Shown one piece after another: positions 3,895 to 43,137 of a stretch of DNA of 44,619 bases. This DNA is from a virus, in IMG/VR virus record IMGVR_UViG_3300020034_000032, positions 1-44,619 of that record. One strand, 5' to 3'. The notes beneath the pieces were generated by a model. That model saw only the letters and a list, made by a program, of their open reading frames with translations. It was not told the DNA's origin and did no database searches. The translations under genes and the position numbers were made by a program. The first letter of the stretch is position 1. The number at the start of each line of letters is the position of its first letter.

Positions 3895-4062
3895 ATGGCT
3901 GCAGACGTGTACCCAGCACCAGCGAACGAGACCGCCAGTAAGTCGCAGGGCCAGGTGAACGCGGACGCGATCACGAAGCTGGTCCAGCCGCAGTGCAACA
4001 CCGGCATGGTCGAGACCCGCTGCGGCGACCCGCTCGTGTACTCCGGTGGAAACGGTCGTTGA
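3895..4062 (+). CDS. Small hypothetical protein
   Basis: A 55-aa protein starting at ATG 3895, one base after the previous stop, with AAGGGGAAG just upstream. It has no hydrophobic segment and two Cys residues (QPQC and TRCG) in the C-terminal half. Its TGA overlaps the ATG of the Acb2-like gene (TGATG), so the two are probably translated together. I do not recognise the family. Confidence 0.65.
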   Translation: MAADVYPAPANETASKSQGQVNADAITKLVQPQCNTGMVETRCGDPLVYSGGNGR

Positions 4063-4283
4063 TGAACGCTGCAGATATCGAGAATCGGTTCGCGTTCCAC
4101 GCGGCCAGCACGGAAGAGAAGCGGGACGAGCACACCAGCGTCCGGCAGAACTGCCGCCAACTGGCTGACTTCCTGAACGACAGGCTTCCCGAGGGGCGCG
4201 AGAAGGCACTTGCGATCATGCACCTCGAAGAAGTGATGTTCTGGGGCAACGCGGCTATCGCGAGGAGTGACGGTGGCAGCTAA
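4062..4283 (+). CDS. acb2: Acb2-like anti-CBASS cyclic-nucleotide sponge
   Basis: A 73-aa protein matching the pattern of Acb2 (Acb2/Tad1 hairpin family): FAFH near residues 10-13, a central helical stretch with RQLADFLNDRLPEGREKALA, and the signature LEEVMFWGNAAIAR at 55-68. Acb2 proteins form small helical oligomers that soak up cyclic di- and trinucleotides made by CBASS enzymes, stopping effector activation. Family knowledge gives the function; the sequence shows the motif pattern. It sits among virion genes between portal and capsid, coupled to its neighbours (TGATG upstream, 11-nt overlap downstream), so expression with late genes is likely. Confidence 0.82.
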   Translation: MNAADIENRFAFHAASTEEKRDEHTSVRQNCRQLADFLNDRLPEGREKALAIMHLEEVMFWGNAAIARSDGGS

Positions 4284-13776: not shown

Positions 13777-13852
13777 AGCGACGTAGGGAAGCTCGGTTGT
13801 TCCCGCAGCCCTCATAAGGCTGAGATCGTGGGTTCGAATCCCACCGCCGCCA
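13777..13852 (+). tRNA. tRNA-Met-like (anticodon CAT)
   Basis: A full cloverleaf can be drawn over 76 nt: D stem GGGA/TCCC with an 11-nt loop containing GG, anticodon stem CAGCC/GGCTG with loop CTCATAA (anticodon CAT), T stem GTGGG/CCCAC with loop TTCGAAT. The acceptor stem 13777-13783 with 13845-13851 has two A-C mismatches, at the end pair and the fifth pair. No CCA is encoded after the A at 13852. The anticodon stem lacks the GGG/CCC pairs of an initiator. CAT could read Met, or Ile if lysidine-modified. The weak acceptor stem means it may be decaying. Confidence 0.68.
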
Positions 13853-13854
13853 CT

Positions 13855-22399: not shown

Positions 22400-22720
22400 A
22401 TGGCAGCAAGTAGTGTCGCCGGGATCATCACGGCCACCTCGACCGTACTGATCGCAGCCGGCGGAGTGATCGCCGCGCTCACCCTGTTCCTGCCGGTGCT
22501 CCGGGGGACCAAGCAGAACGCGGAAGCGATCGAGGAGGTCAAGGTCCAATCAGCCGAGATCCATACGATCGTCAACCAGCAACGCACCGACATGGGTAAC
22601 TACAATCGCGCCCTGATCCGGGCATTGCAGGATCAGGGCATCGCTGTACCAGTAGACCAGAGCGTTAAGACTCCACCGCAGGGGATTCCAGCGACTCCAC
22701 CGGTTCCCCATCCCGGGTGA
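22400..22720 (+). CDS. Small membrane protein, holin/spanin-like
   Basis: A 106-aa protein with one hydrophobic segment at about 7-33, then a charged helix (KQNAEAIEEVKVQSAEIHTI) and NQQRTDMGNYNRALIRAL, ending in a Pro-rich tail. Proteins of this shape occur near actinophage lysis genes and are often called holin or membrane protein. GGAGAG precedes the ATG, which follows the nozzle stop directly. It is the last rightward gene and its 3' end overlaps the leftward glycosyltransferase by 56 nt. Confidence 0.6.
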   Translation: MAASSVAGIITATSTVLIAAGGVIAALTLFLPVLRGTKQNAEAIEEVKVQSAEIHTIVNQQRTDMGNYNRALIRALQDQGIAVPVDQSVKTPPQGIPATPPVPHPG

Positions 22721-23432
22721 ACGACTCGACCATGCCGGTCAGGTCGGACACCTGCTTCTGCACCCGCCAGTCATTGATGGTGAGCATTCGTTCCTTCATG
22801 TGCCCCACCTCGACCCCGGTGTCGACGTAGATCGGCATGAGCGCCATCTGGGCCCGGATGCAGAACGTGACATCCTCGCTCATTGGCTCGCCTTTCCACG
22901 ACGACTCCTGAAACCAGGGGAACGCATCCGAGAACGCCGCCTTCTTGATCTTCTCCGCCGCCGCGCGGTGAATCATCAGGCACGCGGCACCGGTAGCCCA
23001 CACCTGAACGAGCGCATCGTCCGGCCACGACTCGGGCTGGATCAGCTGCTGGTTCTCGTCCATCAGATACATGGTGGTGGACACCTTGTTGTCGACCTTG
23101 CTGACCCGCCAGGTGAGGCCACCGACGATCGGCACCTCACCGCTGCACGACTCCGACAACTTCGACACCATGTCCGGGCGGAACACCATGTCTGAATCGA
23201 TTAGCATCAGTTTCTCCGCCGACGAATCCAGGAACTGCGCGACCGCCATGTTGCGGGCGCTGGTGATGTTCGCCGACGACTGGATGCGGGTCGCGCCGTA
23301 GATCTTGTGATCGTAGTTCGCGTCCCACACACCCATGTCGAGCAACGACTTCGTGAACTCGCCCCGGGTGTTGCCGTTGTCCAACCAGATCACCAGCACG
23401 TTGCGTTCGCCCGGCGGCAGCGCGCCGCTCAT
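22665..23432 (-). CDS. GT-A-type glycosyltransferase
   Basis: A 255-aa protein with an early Rossmann-like strand (NVLVIWLDNGN), the acceptor-side SARNMAVAQFLDS and the metal-binding LMLIDSDMVFRPD (DxD motif). These mark a glycosyltransferase of the GT2-like type found in phages. It transfers a sugar from an activated donor; the acceptor (virion protein, DNA or host surface) is unknown. ATG 23432 overlaps the previous stop (ATGA). The 3' end runs into the last rightward gene, tail to tail. Confidence 0.78.
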   Translation of the reverse strand: MSGALPPGERNVLVIWLDNGNTRGEFTKSLLDMGVWDANYDHKIYGATRIQSSANITSARNMAVAQFLDSSAEKLMLIDSDMVFRPDMVSKLSESCSGEVPIVGGLTWRVSKVDNKVSTTMYLMDENQQLIQPESWPDDALVQVWATGAACLMIHRAAAEKIKKAAFSDAFPWFQESSWKGEPMSEDVTFCIRAQMALMPIYVDTGVEVGHMKERMLTINDWRVQKQVSDLTGMVESFTRDGEPVESLESPAVES

Positions 23433-24211
23433 GTCGCCGCCGGCACGTACACCAGCGTCAACCGGTCCGGCTTCACCGTCGTGATCGAATCCGTCGTACC
23501 CCGCCAGCTGTGATCCTGACACCAGATCAGGTGGGTGCCTTCGTAAACTCCGAGCGCTCCGCTGGGCAGGGAAGACAGATCCTGCTCCGGGGTGATGACG
23601 TCTCCTACGGCCCATGAATGGCTCAACACCCTCACTTCGTAGATGTTGCTGTGCGCCTGGTTGATCCAGTACTTCATCTGGTTGTGGATGCTGTCGCCGT
23701 ACTTGATGCCGAACGACCAGTTGTTGCTCTGCGCCTCCACGTCGGATACGACGCCGCGCATTATCACCTCGACAGTGTCGCCGACGTTGACGACAACCCG
23801 GTCCACATGCTCCATAGCTTCCTTGCTCTCCCTCAACTCGTCGGCGGTCATCACCGGCAGCCCGGTCAGGTTGGCGACCTCCTCGGCCGCCTCCTCCTGG
23901 CTGAGTGCAGCCAGAACGTCGTCGTTAACGTGCAGCGTATTGATCGGCAGGATGCCCTTGCGTATCAGGCGTGGGGTGATGATCTCCTCGACCCGCTCAC
24001 CCTTGTCGTGCACCAGATCGCCCTTGTCGTCGTAGACATAGTTCGGGTGCGCGATCCCGGTGAACCCGGAACCCGACGTACGAATCCCGTTGTCGTCGAA
24101 CATGTGGTACACGAACGTGCCCACATCATTCGGTGGCCACGAGTCGATGGTCCAGGCCACGCCGGGCCACGCCGGCAAGGACACCACGTCGCCCGGCTCA
24201 AAGAGCGCCAT
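23429..24211 (-). CDS. Hypothetical protein with two small-barrel-like regions
   Basis: A 260-aa protein not recognised. The N-terminal section (FEPGDVVSLPAWPGVAWTI) and the C-terminal section (WAVGDVITPEQDL ... GVYEGTHLIWCQDHSW) both look like short SH3/KOW-type beta barrels; the centre holds an acidic helical stretch (ALSQEEAAEEVANLTG). It overlaps the glycosyltransferase by four bases, so they are probably co-expressed and could work together. Confidence 0.6.
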   Translation of the reverse strand: MALFEPGDVVSLPAWPGVAWTIDSWPPNDVGTFVYHMFDDNGIRTSGSGFTGIAHPNYVYDDKGDLVHDKGERVEEIITPRLIRKGILPINTLHVNDDVLAALSQEEAAEEVANLTGLPVMTADELRESKEAMEHVDRVVVNVGDTVEVIMRGVVSDVEAQSNNWSFGIKYGDSIHNQMKYWINQAHSNIYEVRVLSHSWAVGDVITPEQDLSSLPSGALGVYEGTHLIWCQDHSWRGTTDSITTVKPDRLTLVYVPAAT

Positions 24212-24728
24212 CGGTTTCCTCCCGGTTGTCGGCAGCAACCTTGCGCAACTGCTTAACCACCTTCTCGGCCGTCTGCTGCGGCAGATCATTCCACTCCGTG
24301 ATGGCGAAGCCGCCCAGCGTTTCCTCAAGCAGCACCAACGCCAACCGCAGTTCCATGTAATGCGGTAGCTCGCCGTACATCGGCTGGTACGGCACGCCAT
24401 ATGCGGCCATGTTCAGCGCACCCGACGCGCAGACTGCGCATTCAGCGAAACCTTCCGGCCTCATGTAGATGCAGGCGGACAGCGCCGTGCGGTGAATACC
24501 TCCGGCTCCGGCCTCGTGGCCATACTCGTTGAAGGGATACCAGTCGAAGTCGTCGAACAGCTTTCGCCAGCCCTCCTTCGTCGTCGGGTAGTCGAACATC
24601 TGAAACTGTCGCCAGCCCTGCCGCTCAAGAATGTCGGCCGAGAGATCGATCAGGTCAGCGGCGGTCAACGGTCCAGGCGGGCCCCACACCGTCTCGCGGA
24701 CGCGGGACTCGTCCTCCGGTCTCTCCAT
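24198..24728 (-). CDS. DUF6197-like protein
   Basis: A 176-aa protein. The layout resembles DUF6197: an N-terminal helix with AADLIDLSADILERQGW, a Cys-containing core (SACIYMRPEGFAECAVCASG) and the ending AITEWNDLPQQTAEKVV with LRKVAA. DUF6197 proteins are common in actinobacteria and their phages; no function is known. AGGGAGAAGG precedes the ATG at 24728. Confidence 0.62.
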   Translation of the reverse strand: MERPEDESRVRETVWGPPGPLTAADLIDLSADILERQGWRQFQMFDYPTTKEGWRKLFDDFDWYPFNEYGHEAGAGGIHRTALSACIYMRPEGFAECAVCASGALNMAAYGVPYQPMYGELPHYMELRLALVLLEETLGGFAITEWNDLPQQTAEKVVKQLRKVAADNREETDGAL

Positions 24729-31377: not shown

Positions 31378-31706
31378 CGCCGCACTACCTCTGCCGGGCC
31401 ACCGTGCCCTACGCACGCGCCCGGTGTCTTGATGTAGGACATCCCGCTGTCGCCGCAGATCCAGGTGGCACCGTGCGCGGTCGCGTAGTCGGTTTCGGCC
31501 TGGTTCTTCGGGAACGTGACGCTGGTGTCCTTCGGGATGATGGACGCCGACGCCTTGCCGGTCGGGGCGGGCCCGACGTGCGTGGTGTGCGCGTCGGACG
31601 GTGTGGCCTTACATCCGGCCAGCGCGGCCAGTGCGAACCCGGTGATCACCAGGGCGATCACTATCCATGCCGTGAACGCCCAGCGGGCGGTCTTGTCGTT
31701 AACCAT
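31374..31706 (-). CDS. Phage-encoded lipoprotein
   Basis: A 110-aa protein with a charged start, a hydrophobic segment (14-31) and the lipobox LAGC ending at Cys32, followed by a Ser/Thr/Pro region and a small domain with two Cys (WICGDSGMSYIKTPGACVG). Lipid anchoring outside the membrane fits known superinfection-exclusion lipoproteins, but that role is inferred. AAGGGAGAG lies 4 nt before the ATG. Confidence 0.72.
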   Translation of the reverse strand: MVNDKTARWAFTAWIVIALVITGFALAALAGCKATPSDAHTTHVGPAPTGKASASIIPKDTSVTFPKNQAETDYATAHGATWICGDSGMSYIKTPGACVGHGGPAEVVRR

Positions 31707-32097
31707 TTCCCTCTCCCTTTTCGAATCTTGTCCGCCACCATTCGGTGGCGGGGTCGGGCTCTATCTCGATCACCGCCACCCCGTTGTCCCGCGCTTGGCG
31801 GGTCATGTCGGCGGTGCCTCTTCCTCCCCAGAACGCGACGACCGCGTCGACTGGGTAGCCCTCGTGCAGCATGAGTCGGTTGCGGATCGGCCCGGCTGCT
31901 TTCTGGTCGTGGAACCAGTCCGGGTAGTACACCCGGTGGTGGATGCGCTTGGCTCGGGCGTAGGTGATGGCGAGGGAATCTATCCCGGCTGTTCCCCCGG
32001 CAATAATTTCCGTGGGCCCTATTCCGCCCAGCCTACTTGATAGATATACGTAACTGCATGACTCGAACCAGCGGGACCCGCAGACGATGATCCTCAC
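31699..32097 (-). CDS. SLOG-family protein (DUF2493, YspA-like)
   Basis: A 132-aa Rossmannoid protein: RIIVCGSRWFES at the start, EIIAGGTAGIDSLAITYA in the middle, VDAVVAFWGGRGTADMTRQA and IEIEPDP at the end. This is the SLOG fold of DUF2493/YspA proteins, predicted to bind a nucleotide or nucleotide-derived ligand. Substrate unknown. GTG 32097 overlaps the stop of the DUF397-like gene (GTGA). The ATAGATATACGTAA repeat lies inside this gene at 32040-32053. Confidence 0.78.
   Translation of the reverse strand: MRIIVCGSRWFESCSYVYLSSRLGGIGPTEIIAGGTAGIDSLAITYARAKRIHHRVYYPDWFHDQKAAGPIRNRLMLHEGYPVDAVVAFWGGRGTADMTRQARDNGVAVIEIEPDPATEWWRTRFEKGEGNG
32040..32053. repeat. 14-bp direct repeat, copy 1
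   Basis: ATAGATATACGTAA, identical to 32279-32292. A/T-rich against a GC-rich background. This copy is inside the SLOG gene. Confidence 0.7.
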
Positions 32098-32261
32098 GGG
32101 GTGACCCGGCGCACGAAATCGATGTACTGCTGCCATTCTTCGAGGGTGAACTTCATCGCGCCCCGGCGCGGATGCGCCGTGTCTACGACATACACGATTC
32201 CATTTTCCTCGAACACGCTCACACACTCCCCGGTGTCACAGCGGAATTCCCAGTCATACAT
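32094..32261 (-). CDS. DUF397-like small protein
   Basis: A 55-aa gene shorter than usual ORF cut-offs. It reads YDWEFRCDTGECVSVFEENG, then VYVVDTAHPRRG and MKFTLEEWQQYIDFVRR. This follows the DUF397 plan: GxCV-x-V, then V-x-V-x-D-x3-P, then L-x-F-[ST]-x-x-EW-x-x-[FY]. In actinomycetes DUF397 proteins are usually partners of helix-turn-helix regulators. GGAGG and GTGGAG precede the ATG at 32261. The stop overlaps the SLOG GTG. Family inferred from pattern. Confidence 0.66.
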   Translation of the reverse strand: MYDWEFRCDTGECVSVFEENGIVYVVDTAHPRRGAMKFTLEEWQQYIDFVRRVTP

Positions 32262-34220: not shown

Positions 34221-34254
34221 CGAGAAGCCACCGGGTGTAGCCGGTGGCTTCTCG
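34221..34254. terminator. Strong hairpin
   Basis: CGAGAAGCCACCGG (34221-34234) and CCGGTGGCTTCTCG (34241-34254) are a perfect 14-bp inverted repeat with a 6-nt loop, between two leftward genes. The arms resemble those of the hairpin at 34707-34738. Confidence 0.72.
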
Positions 34255-34706: not shown

Positions 34707-34738
34707 GAGAAGCCCCCGGGGTGAGCCGGGGGCTTCTC
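34707..34738. terminator. Strong hairpin, possible attenuator
   Basis: GAGAAGCCCCCGG (34707-34719) and CCGGGGGCTTCTC (34726-34738) form a perfect 13-bp stem with a 6-nt loop, 22 nt before the leftward ATG 34685. There is no T run. A frame with its own ribosome site crosses it. Confidence 0.72.
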
Positions 34739-36109: not shown

Positions 36110-36148
36110 AGCGGGCCCCTGCCGCTCTATATTCGGCAGGGGCCCGCT
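36110..36148. terminator. Strong hairpin after the ParB-like gene
   Basis: AGCGGGCCCCTGCCG (36110-36124) and CGGCAGGGGCCCGCT (36134-36148) are a perfect 15-bp inverted repeat with a 9-nt loop, 4 nt past the leftward ParB-like stop. It probably ends that transcript. Confidence 0.75.
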
Positions 36149-37081: not shown

Positions 37082-37749
37082 TTCTCTCGCTCTCCCTCGG
37101 ATATGGACGAATGAATGTCGCCCAGGTTCCGTAACCCGTCAGCCAAACCGGCCATGACGGTCACCGCGCCTTCATATGCGCGGCGTTGTGCGGCAGCGTT
37201 GGTGATCTCCACTCGCGCCTTGGCCCGCACGATCTTCGGTGGTTCGCCGTTCAGCGCCCGTAGGACCGCTTCGCGGGTAATCACCTGTGCCTCGCGGCAC
37301 TTGCCCAACGCCACCTCGAAGGCGGCGTCGGAGTATTCGGCCAGCACCCAAATGTTGCTGGCGGGGGTTCTGCTCTTGAGATCACGCAGCCGGAATGCGG
37401 TGCTGGCCGGCAGGCGGCCCCCGTGCCTGGCCATCAGGCCCTTGTCCTGTGCGGCACGGATAGACACCATCAGGGCCCGGTCGGCCCGGCGCTCGATCTC
37501 GTAGATGAGTAGTCGGCGGGCCGCATCGCGCTCGATGGCGGCCCGAGTGCCATCCTTGGACCCGTGGGTCCAAGGATGCAGTTCCGTCTTGAGGGTGACC
37601 ACGAATTCGTCGACTAGTTTTATGTCGCCGGCCCGTGCTCGCACCGGTAGTTTCTCGGTCGCGTACGCCAGGTACTTCCTGGCTTTCGCTTCGGCTCGGT
37701 CCACGTCTCCATCCGGGGGACGTGGGTGTGCGGATCGGGTTCCTGGCAT
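36925..37749 (-). CDS. Hypothetical helical protein
   Basis: A 274-aa strongly basic, mostly helical protein with many Arg/Ala/Glu stretches (ARRLLIYEIERRADRALM, AVNRLRSPEWRAMKASVG). AAGGGAGAG lies 4 nt before the ATG at 37749. Its last 157 nt overlap the ParB-like gene. It could be a DNA-binding or packaging-related factor, but no family is recognised. Confidence 0.62.
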   Translation of the reverse strand: MPGTRSAHPRPPDGDVDRAEAKARKYLAYATEKLPVRARAGDIKLVDEFVVTLKTELHPWTHGSKDGTRAAIERDAARRLLIYEIERRADRALMVSIRAAQDKGLMARHGGRLPASTAFRLRDLKSRTPASNIWVLAEYSDAAFEVALGKCREAQVITREAVLRALNGEPPKIVRAKARVEITNAAAQRRAYEGAVTVMAGLADGLRNLGDIHSSISEGEREKWLTELQKSKSVLARAVNRLRSPEWRAMKASVGQTAARARMEANAKRRESRR

Positions 37750-38858: not shown

Positions 38859-38901
38859 GGTTCATCCTCTCCCCTTGTCGATGCGTTCGGACGCATCAGA
38901 A

Positions 38902-38931
38902 ACGCCAGGGACCATTTAAAGCCCCTGGCGT
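38902..38931. terminator. Terminator after the amidotransferase gene
   Basis: ACGCCAGGG (38902-38910) and CCCTGGCGT (38923-38931) pair perfectly; on the minus strand the stem is followed by TTTCTG. A second hairpin GATGCGT/ACGCATC lies beside it near 38880-38897. It ends the amidoligase-amidotransferase unit. Confidence 0.68.
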
Positions 38932-38948
38932 CTCGTGTCGCAGCCGAA

Positions 38949-39980
38949 CTAGTCGGGCAGTATGTTTCCCCGGTCGTCAACCCGCACGGCCGTCTTGAGT
39001 GCCCTGGCGGGCACTAGCTCCTTGCCTGACGCATGTCGGGTGCGTAGCAGCTTCATCGATCCCGAAAACTCAGCTTCGGTCCCGTCGTGCGCCGGACCCA
39101 AGACGACGGGTGACCGTGCATCGTCCCACCATGTTTTCTTGTCCGCCGTGGTGCCGTGGCAATACTTCAACGGCCACGACGACTTGCACCAGCATTCCTC
39201 TAGGTTGTCATCGTCCAGGCCGCGCGGGAGTCCGTAGCAGTCGCAGTCTCGCGGCTGCATGTCGCAGGACACGCAAGCGTCGCACCAGTTGCACGACCCT
39301 AGCCGCATGTCCACGACGAGGAGCGATCTACCGCACATCACGCACGACCGGTCAGTCGGTGCGTAGTCACCCGGGCGGTATGCGTGGCGGATACCCTTGT
39401 GACCGGGCATCGCCCACGCAAACGACGTGTTCGAATACCAGACACCGTCCAGCCAGTCGCCTTCTTTCTCGTTGATGATGATGCCCTGCTTGCCGTATGA
39501 GGGGTTCACGGTCAGGATCACCAGTTTGTTGTATGCGGTGATCGCGTTCGCCAATCGCTGTTGGTTGTGTTTCAACCACAACGGGCCGTAGCGCTGCGGC
39601 ACTAGCTGCAGCGCCAACAGGCGCGTATCGGACCAGGTCGAACCCTTCACCGGTTGCATCCAGGCGGGCAAGATTCCGTTGTGCGCCAACACGGTGCGCC
39701 GGTCGCGGCCCACATAGAACGGGTGGCAGTTGTCGAGATCGTTCGGGCCGGCCGTGCCGATACGGGAGTGAAAGAGCGCCGGACCGTTCGGGTGCAGCGC
39801 GCGGGATGTTTCGAAGGCGTCGACAACTTCCGGCCCCTTCATTCCCTTGTGGACAATCAAACAGTCATTGTCGTTGTCGACAATGGCAAAACCGTGCCCG
39901 TCACTGTTGATGACCGTGCCAGCTAGCAGCCGGTCGCGGTCGATGTCAGCGCCGATCGGGAAGTAAGTCAGGAGACACAT
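38949..39980 (-). CDS. Class-II glutamine amidotransferase
   Basis: A 343-aa N-terminal-nucleophile enzyme. It begins MCLLTYFP, so Cys2 becomes the N-terminal nucleophile after Met removal; NSDGHGFAIV, ALFHSRIGTAG and VLAHNGILP match the glutamine-binding and oxyanion elements. It frees ammonia from glutamine for a partner enzyme. A Cys-rich zinc-like region follows at about 215-270 (CVMCGRSL ... CNWCDACVSCDM). It overlaps the amidoligase gene by 13 nt, so the two are almost surely one functional pair. Confidence 0.8.
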   Translation of the reverse strand: MCLLTYFPIGADIDRDRLLAGTVINSDGHGFAIVDNDNDCLIVHKGMKGPEVVDAFETSRALHPNGPALFHSRIGTAGPNDLDNCHPFYVGRDRRTVLAHNGILPAWMQPVKGSTWSDTRLLALQLVPQRYGPLWLKHNQQRLANAITAYNKLVILTVNPSYGKQGIIINEKEGDWLDGVWYSNTSFAWAMPGHKGIRHAYRPGDYAPTDRSCVMCGRSLLVVDMRLGSCNWCDACVSCDMQPRDCDCYGLPRGLDDDNLEECWCKSSWPLKYCHGTTADKKTWWDDARSPVVLGPAHDGTEAEFSGSMKLLRTRHASGKELVPARALKTAVRVDDRGNILPD

Positions 39981-41446
39981 AGCTTGCTCATTTCTGCGGT
40001 TAGCGGTGCGTAGTCCGGGCGGTCATTGACCCAGGTACGGAACGCACCCCACGACCACCCGTCGTCCTTAATGATCTGACGGGAGGTGAGGTGTCGGGTG
40101 TACTCCACACTTGCCGATGCCAGCCCTAGGGCCGCGCCTAGCTCTTGCTTGTCCAATGTGGAGGCGAATACTCGCATCTCGAAAGTGTTCGCGTTGGTTG
40201 TGTTGACCGCGCTGTAACGCTGCGGACCGTTGCCGTACCCGCTGCGCTCCGCTTCGGTCTGTGCCGCTTCATACAGCCGGTTGTATTCCGCGCTGCGTGG
40301 GTAGGTGCTACGGGAGCGACCGGGCAGATAGTCGCCGTACGTACGGGACTCACTACCGACCGGACCCCACAACCAGGTGTCGCGATCTTCACGGATAGCC
40401 GCAAACCGTTGTGCCGCAAGCGATGCACGCTCCGGCAGGTTTGGCTTCGCAACCCGCCTAGCTAGCGCGCGCTCGCTGGCATGGAACCGTGCCCAGCTAG
40501 AACTACGTCGCCGCGCGATCGCGGTGACGCCCCTCTCGTTGCGGTAAATGAACTTGAGCCAGCGGTAGACATGCGTCGGACTTGAAAACCCGTCACGGTT
40601 GACGTGAATGTGCAGCCCGCAACTGTCTGCGGCACGGGCACGGCGACGCTTGGCCAGGTCCAGCACATCGAACGGGAAATTATCGATCGCCCAGTTATAG
40701 GACATCGGGTGCGTGACCATTTCGAAGCCGTACGAGATCGAGCCGTCGTGCTTGAGGTAGGCGAGATCCCGCGTGGTTGCGTTGGCATCGAACACGTCAA
40801 GCAAGGCGCGCCCGGTCGACTGCTCCCGGTCGGGACCGGTCTCCATCTCAAGTTCGAAGCCCATAAATGTGGGGCCGTCGCCGTAGAAGACCGGAGTCGG
40901 ACGGTAGTAGTAATCGTGAACGGTGGCGCGGCCGGGCGATACCGGGTTACAGCACGGATCAGTGCATCTGCTGCCGTCGTAGTTGTTGTCCTCGCCGTCG
41001 CCCTCGTCCTCTTCGCCGATGTACGTAGGGCACGAGTCGCGACCGCAGTCGGTTGACGAAAAATCGGCAGTGAACTCGCGGCATGAGGTGCATACGGTCG
41101 CGTAATTCGATGCGTGGTAACGACACCAAGTCTGCGCAGTTTCGAGGTGTTCGATGTAGACCACGGTGCGGTCCGTCATCTCCCGATCGCAGAACATGCC
41201 GGAACGGCGGTCTACCCATTCACATTCGCCGTAGTGGCGCGGCCGGGTGCGCTCACGTCGTCTTGCGGCCGCAATGTCGTAGGAGATTGACGGGGCGTGG
41301 GCGATAACTGGGGCTGTCGTGCGGATTGTGAGCGTGGTAAGCGGCTGCAGTTCGGCCGGGTCGGCAGGTGTCGCCCAGTCGCGCGTAAGCGACTCGTAAT
41401 CGATCTGGAACGGCTGCAGTTCGGGCGGGTCGTGAATCTCAGGCAT
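39968..41446 (-). CDS. Amidoligase (glutamine-synthetase-like)
   Basis: A 492-aa protein. The C-terminal ~300 residues carry the amidoligase plan: MGFELEMETG, LKHDGSISYGFEMVTHPMS, SCGLHIHVNRDGF and TFEMRVFASTL, giving the Glu, Asp, His and Arg sites of the glutamine-synthetase-like ligase family that joins a carboxylate to an amine with ATP. The N-terminal ~170 residues contain a Cys-rich stretch (CTSCREFTADFSSTDC) that may bind zinc. AAGGGAGAGG precedes the ATG. Substrate unknown: peptide, protein tail or modified nucleobase are all possible. Confidence 0.78.
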   Translation of the reverse strand: MPEIHDPPELQPFQIDYESLTRDWATPADPAELQPLTTLTIRTTAPVIAHAPSISYDIAAARRRERTRPRHYGECEWVDRRSGMFCDREMTDRTVVYIEHLETAQTWCRYHASNYATVCTSCREFTADFSSTDCGRDSCPTYIGEEDEGDGEDNNYDGSRCTDPCCNPVSPGRATVHDYYYRPTPVFYGDGPTFMGFELEMETGPDREQSTGRALLDVFDANATTRDLAYLKHDGSISYGFEMVTHPMSYNWAIDNFPFDVLDLAKRRRARAADSCGLHIHVNRDGFSSPTHVYRWLKFIYRNERGVTAIARRRSSSWARFHASERALARRVAKPNLPERASLAAQRFAAIREDRDTWLWGPVGSESRTYGDYLPGRSRSTYPRSAEYNRLYEAAQTEAERSGYGNGPQRYSAVNTTNANTFEMRVFASTLDKQELGAALGLASASVEYTRHLTSRQIIKDDGWSWGAFRTWVNDRPDYAPLTAEMSKLCVS

Positions 41447-41499
41447 AGCAGGCCCTCTCCCTTAAGAGGTGTTGTGCTGCATTTCTGCTAGCAGCATCG

Positions 41500-41533
41500 A
41501 AAAGCCTTACAACCGTTGGGCTGTAAGGCTTTT
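41500..41533. terminator. Bidirectional intrinsic terminator
   Basis: AAAAGCCTTAC (41500-41510) and GTAAGGCTTTT (41523-41533) form a perfect 11-bp stem with T runs on both strands. It separates the small genes on the right from the amidoligase unit. Confidence 0.8.
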
Positions 41534-42326: not shown

Positions 42327-43137
42327 GGTCACCTCTCCATTCACGCAAGGCGCGCGGCGGATGCCGTGCGCCCAGCGCGGAGCGGAAGGGTGCTACCAGG
42401 TAGACATTGTGTTGATACAACATCCCCGGGCGAACCGTTCACCAATGCGGACACGTCATGGCCGCGACGCATAGGTCTGCGGCACGCATGGTCTGTCCGG
42501 CTAGCCCGGGGTCGTGCTCTATGGAATCGACAAGTGACCTGCGCCGATCGCGTGTCCACCGTGAGCTAGCGGGGCTGCTGCTACAGCCCCTTGCGCCTAC
42601 ATCATCAGGCTTCGTTCCGTGCCGCGCCTTGCGATACGGACAGTGCCAGGTGAGAGGGCAGGGAGACAACGGTCTGTCGTTGATCCGACAGTTTTCGGGC
42701 ACGATTTGGCACACTCGACAGAAGTATGTCGATGAGCGCATATGTTGTGTCAGCAAGGATGCGGCACTAGGACACAGCAAGATCAACCGTGACGCGTAGA
42801 TCATTAGTCGCGGCCAACTATCAACCTGAACTTGAGACCGATCTGTCTACCCGCCTACCTACGCTTACCTATTCACGCATCAATTAACCGAATGGTTAGG
42901 TCGGACATCATCAGTTATACGTGTATATGATCATGATCTACATCAATGTCACGCTCTGTAGCGTGCACATCCACCATACGTATGAGCCACAACCACCGTT
43001 AGGTGGTATGTGGCTCAACTCTTCGGTCGATAATCATCGACCGGCCGTATCCCCGGCCGCCAGATGATCATTTAGACGTTACCCTCGCGCTACTGCGCGG
43101 AACATTACGGACATAGGGCGGCGGGGGACAGAAAGAA
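42327..43137. other. Hairpin-rich non-coding stretch, possible promoter or origin region
   Basis: About 800 nt with no convincing gene. The right half is A/T-richer than the rest of the window. It holds TGTTG/CAACA (42410-42422), the palindrome GATCATGATC (42929-42938), CACGCT/AGCGTG (42950-42965), an interrupted 15-bp stem TGAGCCACA...TGTGGCTCA (42983-43017) and CGGTCGAT/ATCGACCG (43024-43043). A weak leftward promoter could be GTGACA (42952-42947) with TATACA (42927-42922), 19 nt apart. It lies between two leftward units. Confidence 0.5.
42439..42741 (-). CDS. Doubtful Cys-rich protein
   Basis: A 100-aa frame with CRVCQIVPENC, then CPLTWHCPYRKARHG and a basic C-terminal half. The Cys spacing resembles a zinc-binding protein, but there is no ribosome site, third-base bias is weak and a rival frame exists on the other strand. 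Kept only as a possibility inside the non-coding stretch. Confidence 0.22.
   Translation of the reverse strand: MRSSTYFCRVCQIVPENCRINDRPLSPCPLTWHCPYRKARHGTKPDDVGARGCSSSPASSRWTRDRRRSLVDSIEHDPGLAGQTMRAADLCVAAMTCPHW

Follow-up and report, generated by a model that had tools for sequence, protein, structure and literature searches.

A coupled amidoligase and glutamine amidotransferase gene pair in a viral genome and in actinobacterial mobile elements: a candidate two-subunit amidoligase

The viral genome analyzed here carries, side by side, a gene encoding a GS-fold amidoligase and a gene encoding a class-II glutamine amidotransferase (GATase), which raises the question of whether the two proteins act as one enzyme and on which target. 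Throughout the text, the window denotes the whole stretch of DNA that was analyzed, a virus record of 44,619 bases. Genes of these two types have reportedly been noted in phages since 2009, by Iyer and collaborators, and the combination of an amidoligase with a class-II GATase is of a kind already known from phiEco32, LUZ24, and Marvin; no demonstrated target of such phage pairs was found in the literature. According to the reading that we favor, and hold to be reasonably probable, the pair is a single functional unit, namely a glutamine-dependent two-subunit amidoligase that would modify a host protein or the host envelope soon after entry.

Genome setting and features of the gene pair

The terminase gene of the window is located at 89-1726, with tail and head genes reading rightward from there, and the genes right of approximately 22.7 kb read mostly leftward. 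The large terminase subunit resembles those of Streptomyces phages (39%). The two open reading frames and the short overlap proposed in the initial annotation were both recovered in the ORF calls of the window (Table 1), and this overlap makes translational coupling of the two genes probable, as far as gene layout can indicate.

Table 1. Coordinates of the gene pair, its cysteine-rich regions, and the flanking hairpins within the window
Feature	Position	Strand	Description
GS-fold amidoligase (Amidoligase_2)	39968..41446	-	492 aa, ATG start; PF12224 E 5.8e-9
Class-II glutamine amidotransferase (Ntn, Cys2)	38949..39980	-	343 aa, ATG start
Gene overlap, 13 nt, ATGTGTCTCCTGA	39968..39980	-	Read from sequence
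Cys-rich N-terminal ligase region, residues ~75-166 (C75-C166)	40949..41224	-	Conserved Cys; probable Zn-binding
Amidotransferase C-terminal CxxC..CxxCxxCxxC..CxC cluster, residues 213-248	39237..39344	-	8 conserved Cys
Hairpin upstream of the pair, terminator-like	41500..41533	-	dG -27.3 kcal/mol (61-nt stretch), z -6.35
Hairpin downstream of the pair, terminator-like	38899..38934	-	dG -31.5 kcal/mol (61-nt stretch), z -5.09

Families, active sites, and folds

The ligase is composed of a variable Cys-rich N-terminal part and a catalytic domain spanning approximately residues 190-492, and it reached 36.6 bits against the Pfam family PF12224 (Amidoligase_2; curated cut-off 22). Residues E198, E200, D234, S236, E242, H279, E423, and R425 were essentially invariant across 28 phage and 114 chromosomal or plasmid ligases. 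The AlphaFold model of the ligase matched YbdK with a Z of 13.2 (rmsd 3.9-4.1, ~220 aligned residues) and glutamine synthetases and GmaS with Z values of 11-12.6; weak Foldseek matches included Dop and PafA, which are pupylation enzymes with a GS fold. The GS/GCS fold and the conserved acidic, histidine, and arginine motifs of the active site are therefore present, the catalytic residues are intact as read from the alignment, and the protein is probably an ATP-dependent amide-forming enzyme, to judge by its residues and its model.

The amidotransferase fell below the curated Pfam cut-offs of PF13522 and PF13230 (GATase_6 and GATase_4; E 6e-4 and 8e-3), with 20.2 bits vs a cut-off of 27 and 15.6 vs 23, while its homologue L003 exceeded the GATase cut-off (28.9 vs 23 bits). 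However, C2, R73, H100-N101-G102, and S117-D118-T119 showed no or hardly any variation among 25 phage and 112 chromosomal or plasmid amidotransferases, providing the complete class-II set of a cysteine nucleophile after Met removal, the arginine R73, the N101-G102 oxyanion, and D118 for glutamine. The AlphaFold model showed the Ntn/GATase-II fold, with GlmS (Z 13.6, rmsd 3.8, 179 aligned residues), EgtC (Z 13.3), and PurF (Z 12.5) all within a Z range of 12-13.6. Because the catalytic residues are invariant and the fold matches, we assign the protein to the class-II GATases in spite of its Pfam scores. Both family assignments of the initial annotation were consequently borne out by profiles, active-site residues, and folds.

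In the two-subunit reading, the class-II subunit would hydrolyze glutamine through its N-terminal Cys2 to release ammonia, the GS-fold subunit would activate a carboxylate with ATP to form an acyl phosphate, and attack of ammonia on this intermediate would yield an amide. The folds do not establish the ammonia transfer, since EgtC is structurally as close to the amidotransferase as GlmS is (Z 13.3 vs 13.6), and EgtC is a gamma-glutamyl hydrolase that passes no ammonia to a partner. A cycle resembling that of EgtA and EgtC, in which the GS-fold enzyme links a gamma-glutamyl group to an amine (as in the YbdK, GmaS, and EgtA type) and the Ntn enzyme hydrolyzes the gamma-glutamyl bond with no ammonia passed, would account for YbdK (glutamate-cysteine ligase fold) being the best structural match of the ligase, for GmaS being among its top matches, and for EgtC standing level with GlmS; a gamma-glutamyl cyclotransferase (GGCT) is also present in related proteobacterial phage cassettes. 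We nevertheless regard this cycle as unlikely, as GGCT is absent from the window and from phage RedRaider77, and the strict 1:1 pairing and the translational overlap described below fit a two-subunit enzyme at least equally well. YbdK, GmaS, GlmS, and EgtC share the folds and active-site types of the window proteins at 10-20% identity, and EgtA presumably belongs with the ligase in both respects, but we know of no EgtA/EgtC, GlmS, YbdK, or GmaS system that joins both folds in one Zn-bearing pair.

Cysteine-rich regions

Both proteins had been described as carrying Cys-rich, zinc-like insertions. The cysteine content and its conservation were confirmed, but the regions are terminal and lie outside the catalytic domains, so that they are not insertions. 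Among 114 aligned chromosomal or plasmid ligases, C108, C119, C122, and C161 were found in 110-114 sequences (C119 and C122 in 110), and all 28 phage ligases bore C86, C119, and C122. Each of the eight cysteines of the amidotransferase (C213-C248) was present in 105-107 of 112 chromosomal or plasmid sequences and in 23-24 of 25 phage sequences. The Cys region of the ligase gave weak LIM-like PDB sequence matches alone (E at least 0.14), and model confidence was low across the Cys-rich parts, with a pLDDT below 50 for the ligase and of 60-77 for the amidotransferase. Cysteine spacing suggests that these parts probably bind Zn, and such modules may join the two subunits and/or dock the pair on a macromolecular target.

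Pairing and gene overlap across relatives

Searches seeded with either gene returned the partner gene too. Besides the window, ligase and amidotransferase genes were adjacent and on one strand in 28 of 30 viral loci, and both unpaired loci stop at a contig edge; on contig L016, the gene order was reversed. Among 71 loci on plasmids or chromosomes, the ligase preceded the amidotransferase in 70, L107 being the only locus without a ligase among those not cut by a contig end, and at least two tandem pairs were present in 38 of the 71. The exact 13-nt overlap of the window recurred in 101 of 109 chromosomal or plasmid pairs, whereas the spacing at phage junctions extended from a gap of 421 nt to an overlap of 1 nt, with an overlap of 10 nt at MEP402. 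Since the overlap is kept in chromosomal and plasmid pairs and varies in phages, it is an inherited trait of the clade of the window genes; it is partly explained by the conserved Met-Cys-x-Leu start, where CTG followed by A gives the stop codon of the ligase. The adjacency in nearly all relatives and the frequency of this overlap agree with the earlier claim that the two genes form a unit, and their near-constant co-occurrence makes a single machine probable. That they are two adjacent but functionally separate auxiliary metabolic genes is scarcely credible, given how regularly they adjoin and how well the overlap is conserved.

Tandem ligase-amidotransferase-ligase-amidotransferase arrays were found in Nocardia, at L047, L050, L057-L070, and further loci of this genus. 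The first and second copies in Nocardia are ~51% identical within a locus and 62-66% identical to the same copy elsewhere; as identity is higher across loci than within them, two distinct pairs have been retained. Both pairs are intact, and the clades of the partners agreed in 595 of 595 comparisons. Ligase and amidotransferase distances were correlated with an r of 0.91, but an unrelated neighbor gene, C1, correlated nearly as well with the two (0.90 and 0.87), and the mirror-tree correlation was therefore rejected as proof of contact: co-evolution here is not specific evidence of it.

For the neighbors of the pair in the window, no clear homologs were seen beside the other pairs. In freshwater actinophages, the neighboring WhiB (F2) and sigma-70 region 4 (F4) genes track phage relatedness. 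A third partner was rejected as a candidate, the neighbors not being shared between the window and other loci, and a search for a conserved substrate peptide among the neighbors of the pairs found none. Two capsid-sister contigs (L032 and L033) lack the pair but are merely fragments of 21 and 11 kb, and hence uninformative.

Flanking hairpins

The pair had further been proposed to be an insulated unit bounded by terminators. Two strong hairpins do flank it, and 0 of 200 shuffles folded as well as either of them; however, a consensus terminator scan requiring a T run after the stem flagged neither, so that "terminator" is at best a putative label. A search of the 53 nt that separate the amidoligase start from the upstream hairpin yielded no sigma70-like promoter. 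Approximately nine equally strong minus-strand hairpins occur between 25 and 43 kb of the window, the strong ones other than the flanking two lying at 43136, 37551, 36110, 34707, 34221, 32287, 29223, and 25429, and in relatives another gene often begins within a few dozen bases downstream of the amidotransferase, the gap seen in the window being absent. Because hairpins are widespread in the window and the downstream genes of relatives are close, the insulation is a local habit of this genome and not a hallmark of the system, and this part of the proposal did not stand. Among the intergenic hairpins of the leftward region, those at 34221-34254, 34707-34738, 36110-36148, and 37551-37578 are long and near-perfect; they are possibly terminators or regulatory sites.

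Origin and carriers of the pair

In the maximum-likelihood tree, the amidotransferase of the window groups within a clade of chromosomal and plasmid sequences from actinomycetes (support 100/96), apart from the freshwater actinophage clade. Its nearest relative is from Labedaea rhizosphaerae (46-47% identity), although the branch of the window is long and the exact nearest neighbor is therefore unsure. The freshwater actinophage contigs encode terminase and portal proteins 34-42% identical to those of the window, and their pair is oriented divergently from the terminase genes, an arrangement that the window would share if its genome ends were joined.

Three chromosomal elements, from Amycolatopsis, Nocardia nova, and Labedaea, were read over 39-58 kb. 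In all three, a large TrwC relaxase-helicase gene (E 9e-42 to 1e-86) is located downstream of the pair and co-oriented with it, at ~2.3, 8.8, and 9.7 kb; owing to this position upstream of a TrwC relaxase, we consider these carriers to be conjugative elements. Other neighbors encode Prim-Pol, DUF4192, SSB, DprA-like, and ParB-like proteins, and a scan of 41 element proteins gave one coupling-protein match and two integrase matches. Four mycobacterial plasmids bear the amidotransferase, with an adjoining ligase in three. Being found on phages, plasmids, and conjugative elements, the pair is a cargo of all three, and what these carriers would have in common is the injection of DNA into a new host. 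The enzyme would probably act soon after entry, either on the host envelope (exclusion) or on host factors (counter-defense).

Comparison with known systems and candidate targets

Like the window, the cluster S mycobacteriophages (Marvin and RedRaider77, genes 112-113) bear adjacent Amidoligase_2-like and class-II GATase genes. Their amidotransferase is 37% identical to that of the window over residues 1-264 and has the C-terminal Cys cluster in common with it, but their genes are separated by a 78-nt gap in place of the 13-nt overlap, and the genome type differs. Gene 112 of RedRaider77 (L001 3827-5191), a ligase, bears the annotation "glutamine amidotransferase domain protein", which seems to have been transferred from the neighboring gene. 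The OM43 phage genes MEP401 and MEP402 likewise encode an amidoligase (ligase profile match 99.7%) and a GATase that overlap, but the host is proteobacterial, unlike those of the actinobacterial pairs, and the MEP402 protein lacks the eight-cysteine cluster. The architecture of the window is found on the plasmids and TrwC elements of Nocardia, Amycolatopsis, Mycobacterium, and others, mostly with the same 13-nt overlap; these pairs differ in often being two in tandem and in residing on conjugative elements rather than phages, and the records consulted assign them no function. A stand-alone pair with Cys modules, borne by conjugative elements and frequently present in tandem, seems to be a variant of the known kind, and we found no description of it.

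In the phiEco32/LUZ24 cassette, the amidoligase gene is followed by a class-II GATase gene, as in the window, but the cassette also carries a COOH-NH2 ligase, an ATP-grasp protein, and GGCT, none of which was detected in the window. Searches for PF14395 (COOH-NH2 ligase) and GGCT were negative in the window and RedRaider77 and positive in LUZ24 and phiEco32, and that for GGCT was positive in the Stenotrophomonas phage StenR_269 as well. RimK was found in phiEco32 and StenR_269 and in neither the window nor RedRaider77; this is the weakest of the family absences, because the model missed the annotated RimK gene of LUZ24. In StenR_269, both enzyme types belong to a longer cassette (L035 6001-12357) that comprises two amidotransferase and two GS-type ligase genes, ATP-grasp, and GGCT.

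The peptidoglycan of the hosts of the actinobacterial pairs has free carboxylates, and a cell-envelope peptide (peptidoglycan stem carboxylates) or a host protein would be a likelier target than DNA. One possibility, to which we give limited credence though more than to the EgtA/EgtC-like cycle, is that the pair is a reduced envelope module of the phiEco32/LUZ24 type that amidates or cross-links peptidoglycan peptides and thereby keeps out rival phages and conjugative elements. This is a more specific version, as to role, of the two-subunit amidoligase, and the two readings overlap. The missing COOH-NH2 ligase, GGCT, and RimK-type ATP-grasp genes in the window and RedRaider77 count against it, as does the marginal profile similarity between the LUZ24 and window pairs. 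The LUZ24 ligase also differs in lacking a Cys-rich N-terminus. Conversely, both families adjoin in LUZ24 and phiEco32, whose module is termed a putative peptidoglycan-modification module in papers citing Iyer et al. 2009 (PMC11945000, PMC10580990, PMC11318856), where the cassette is also said to possibly prevent superinfection. The literature searched contained no experimental demonstration of the role of the cassette.

DNA hypermodification, in which the pair would amidate or decorate a modified base in the phage DNA, is very improbable. Class-II GATases do serve 7-deazaguanine DNA modification in some phages, with Gat-QueC fusions in some mycobacteriophages, and restriction confronts phages and conjugative elements alike; yet GS-fold ligases act on amino-acid-like carboxylates, a QueC search that was positive in 12 control genomes was negative in all five records of the cassette comparison, and the Pfam scan of the whole window revealed no known base-modification family. 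The earlier remark that no known base-modification enzymes are nearby thus holds for both searches. A known anti-phage defense system was rejected as well, the PADLOC defense-system models giving no match to the pair up to an E of 0.1.

The two-subunit amidoligase can be extended to a Zn-scaffolded, glutamine-fed machine that amidates proteins or peptidoglycan and is expressed upon entry by actinobacterial phages, plasmids, and TrwC elements for counter-defense or exclusion. In this full form the proposal is doubtful, but if true, it would be a chemical device without an experimental description so far. The occurrence of the minimal pair, with its Cys modules and an equal overlap, on conjugative elements of Nocardia, Amycolatopsis, and relatives, often in tandem, speaks for a common function in hosts that the element has just entered, and as a two-gene system, the pair could be expressed and assayed without the remainder of the phiEco32/LUZ24 cassette.

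Other features of the window

Several further features were recorded in the window. An ORF at 3993-4283 (+), situated between the portal gene and a 1673-aa ORF, contains an Acb2/Tad1 hairpin domain at 4095-4265 (PF24729, E 1.4e-20), a family of phage anti-CBASS/anti-Thoeris sponges. A tRNA-Met (CAT) gene at 13777-13853 (+) lies immediately upstream of the head gene cluster. In the leftward region, the ORF at 31699-32226 (-) encodes a YspA-like SLOG domain (PF10686, E 2.9e-9). Finally, the ORF at 22665-23615 (-), which overlaps another minus-strand ORF at 23429-24400, matched a PHROG glycosyltransferase (E 5e-17) and no Pfam family.
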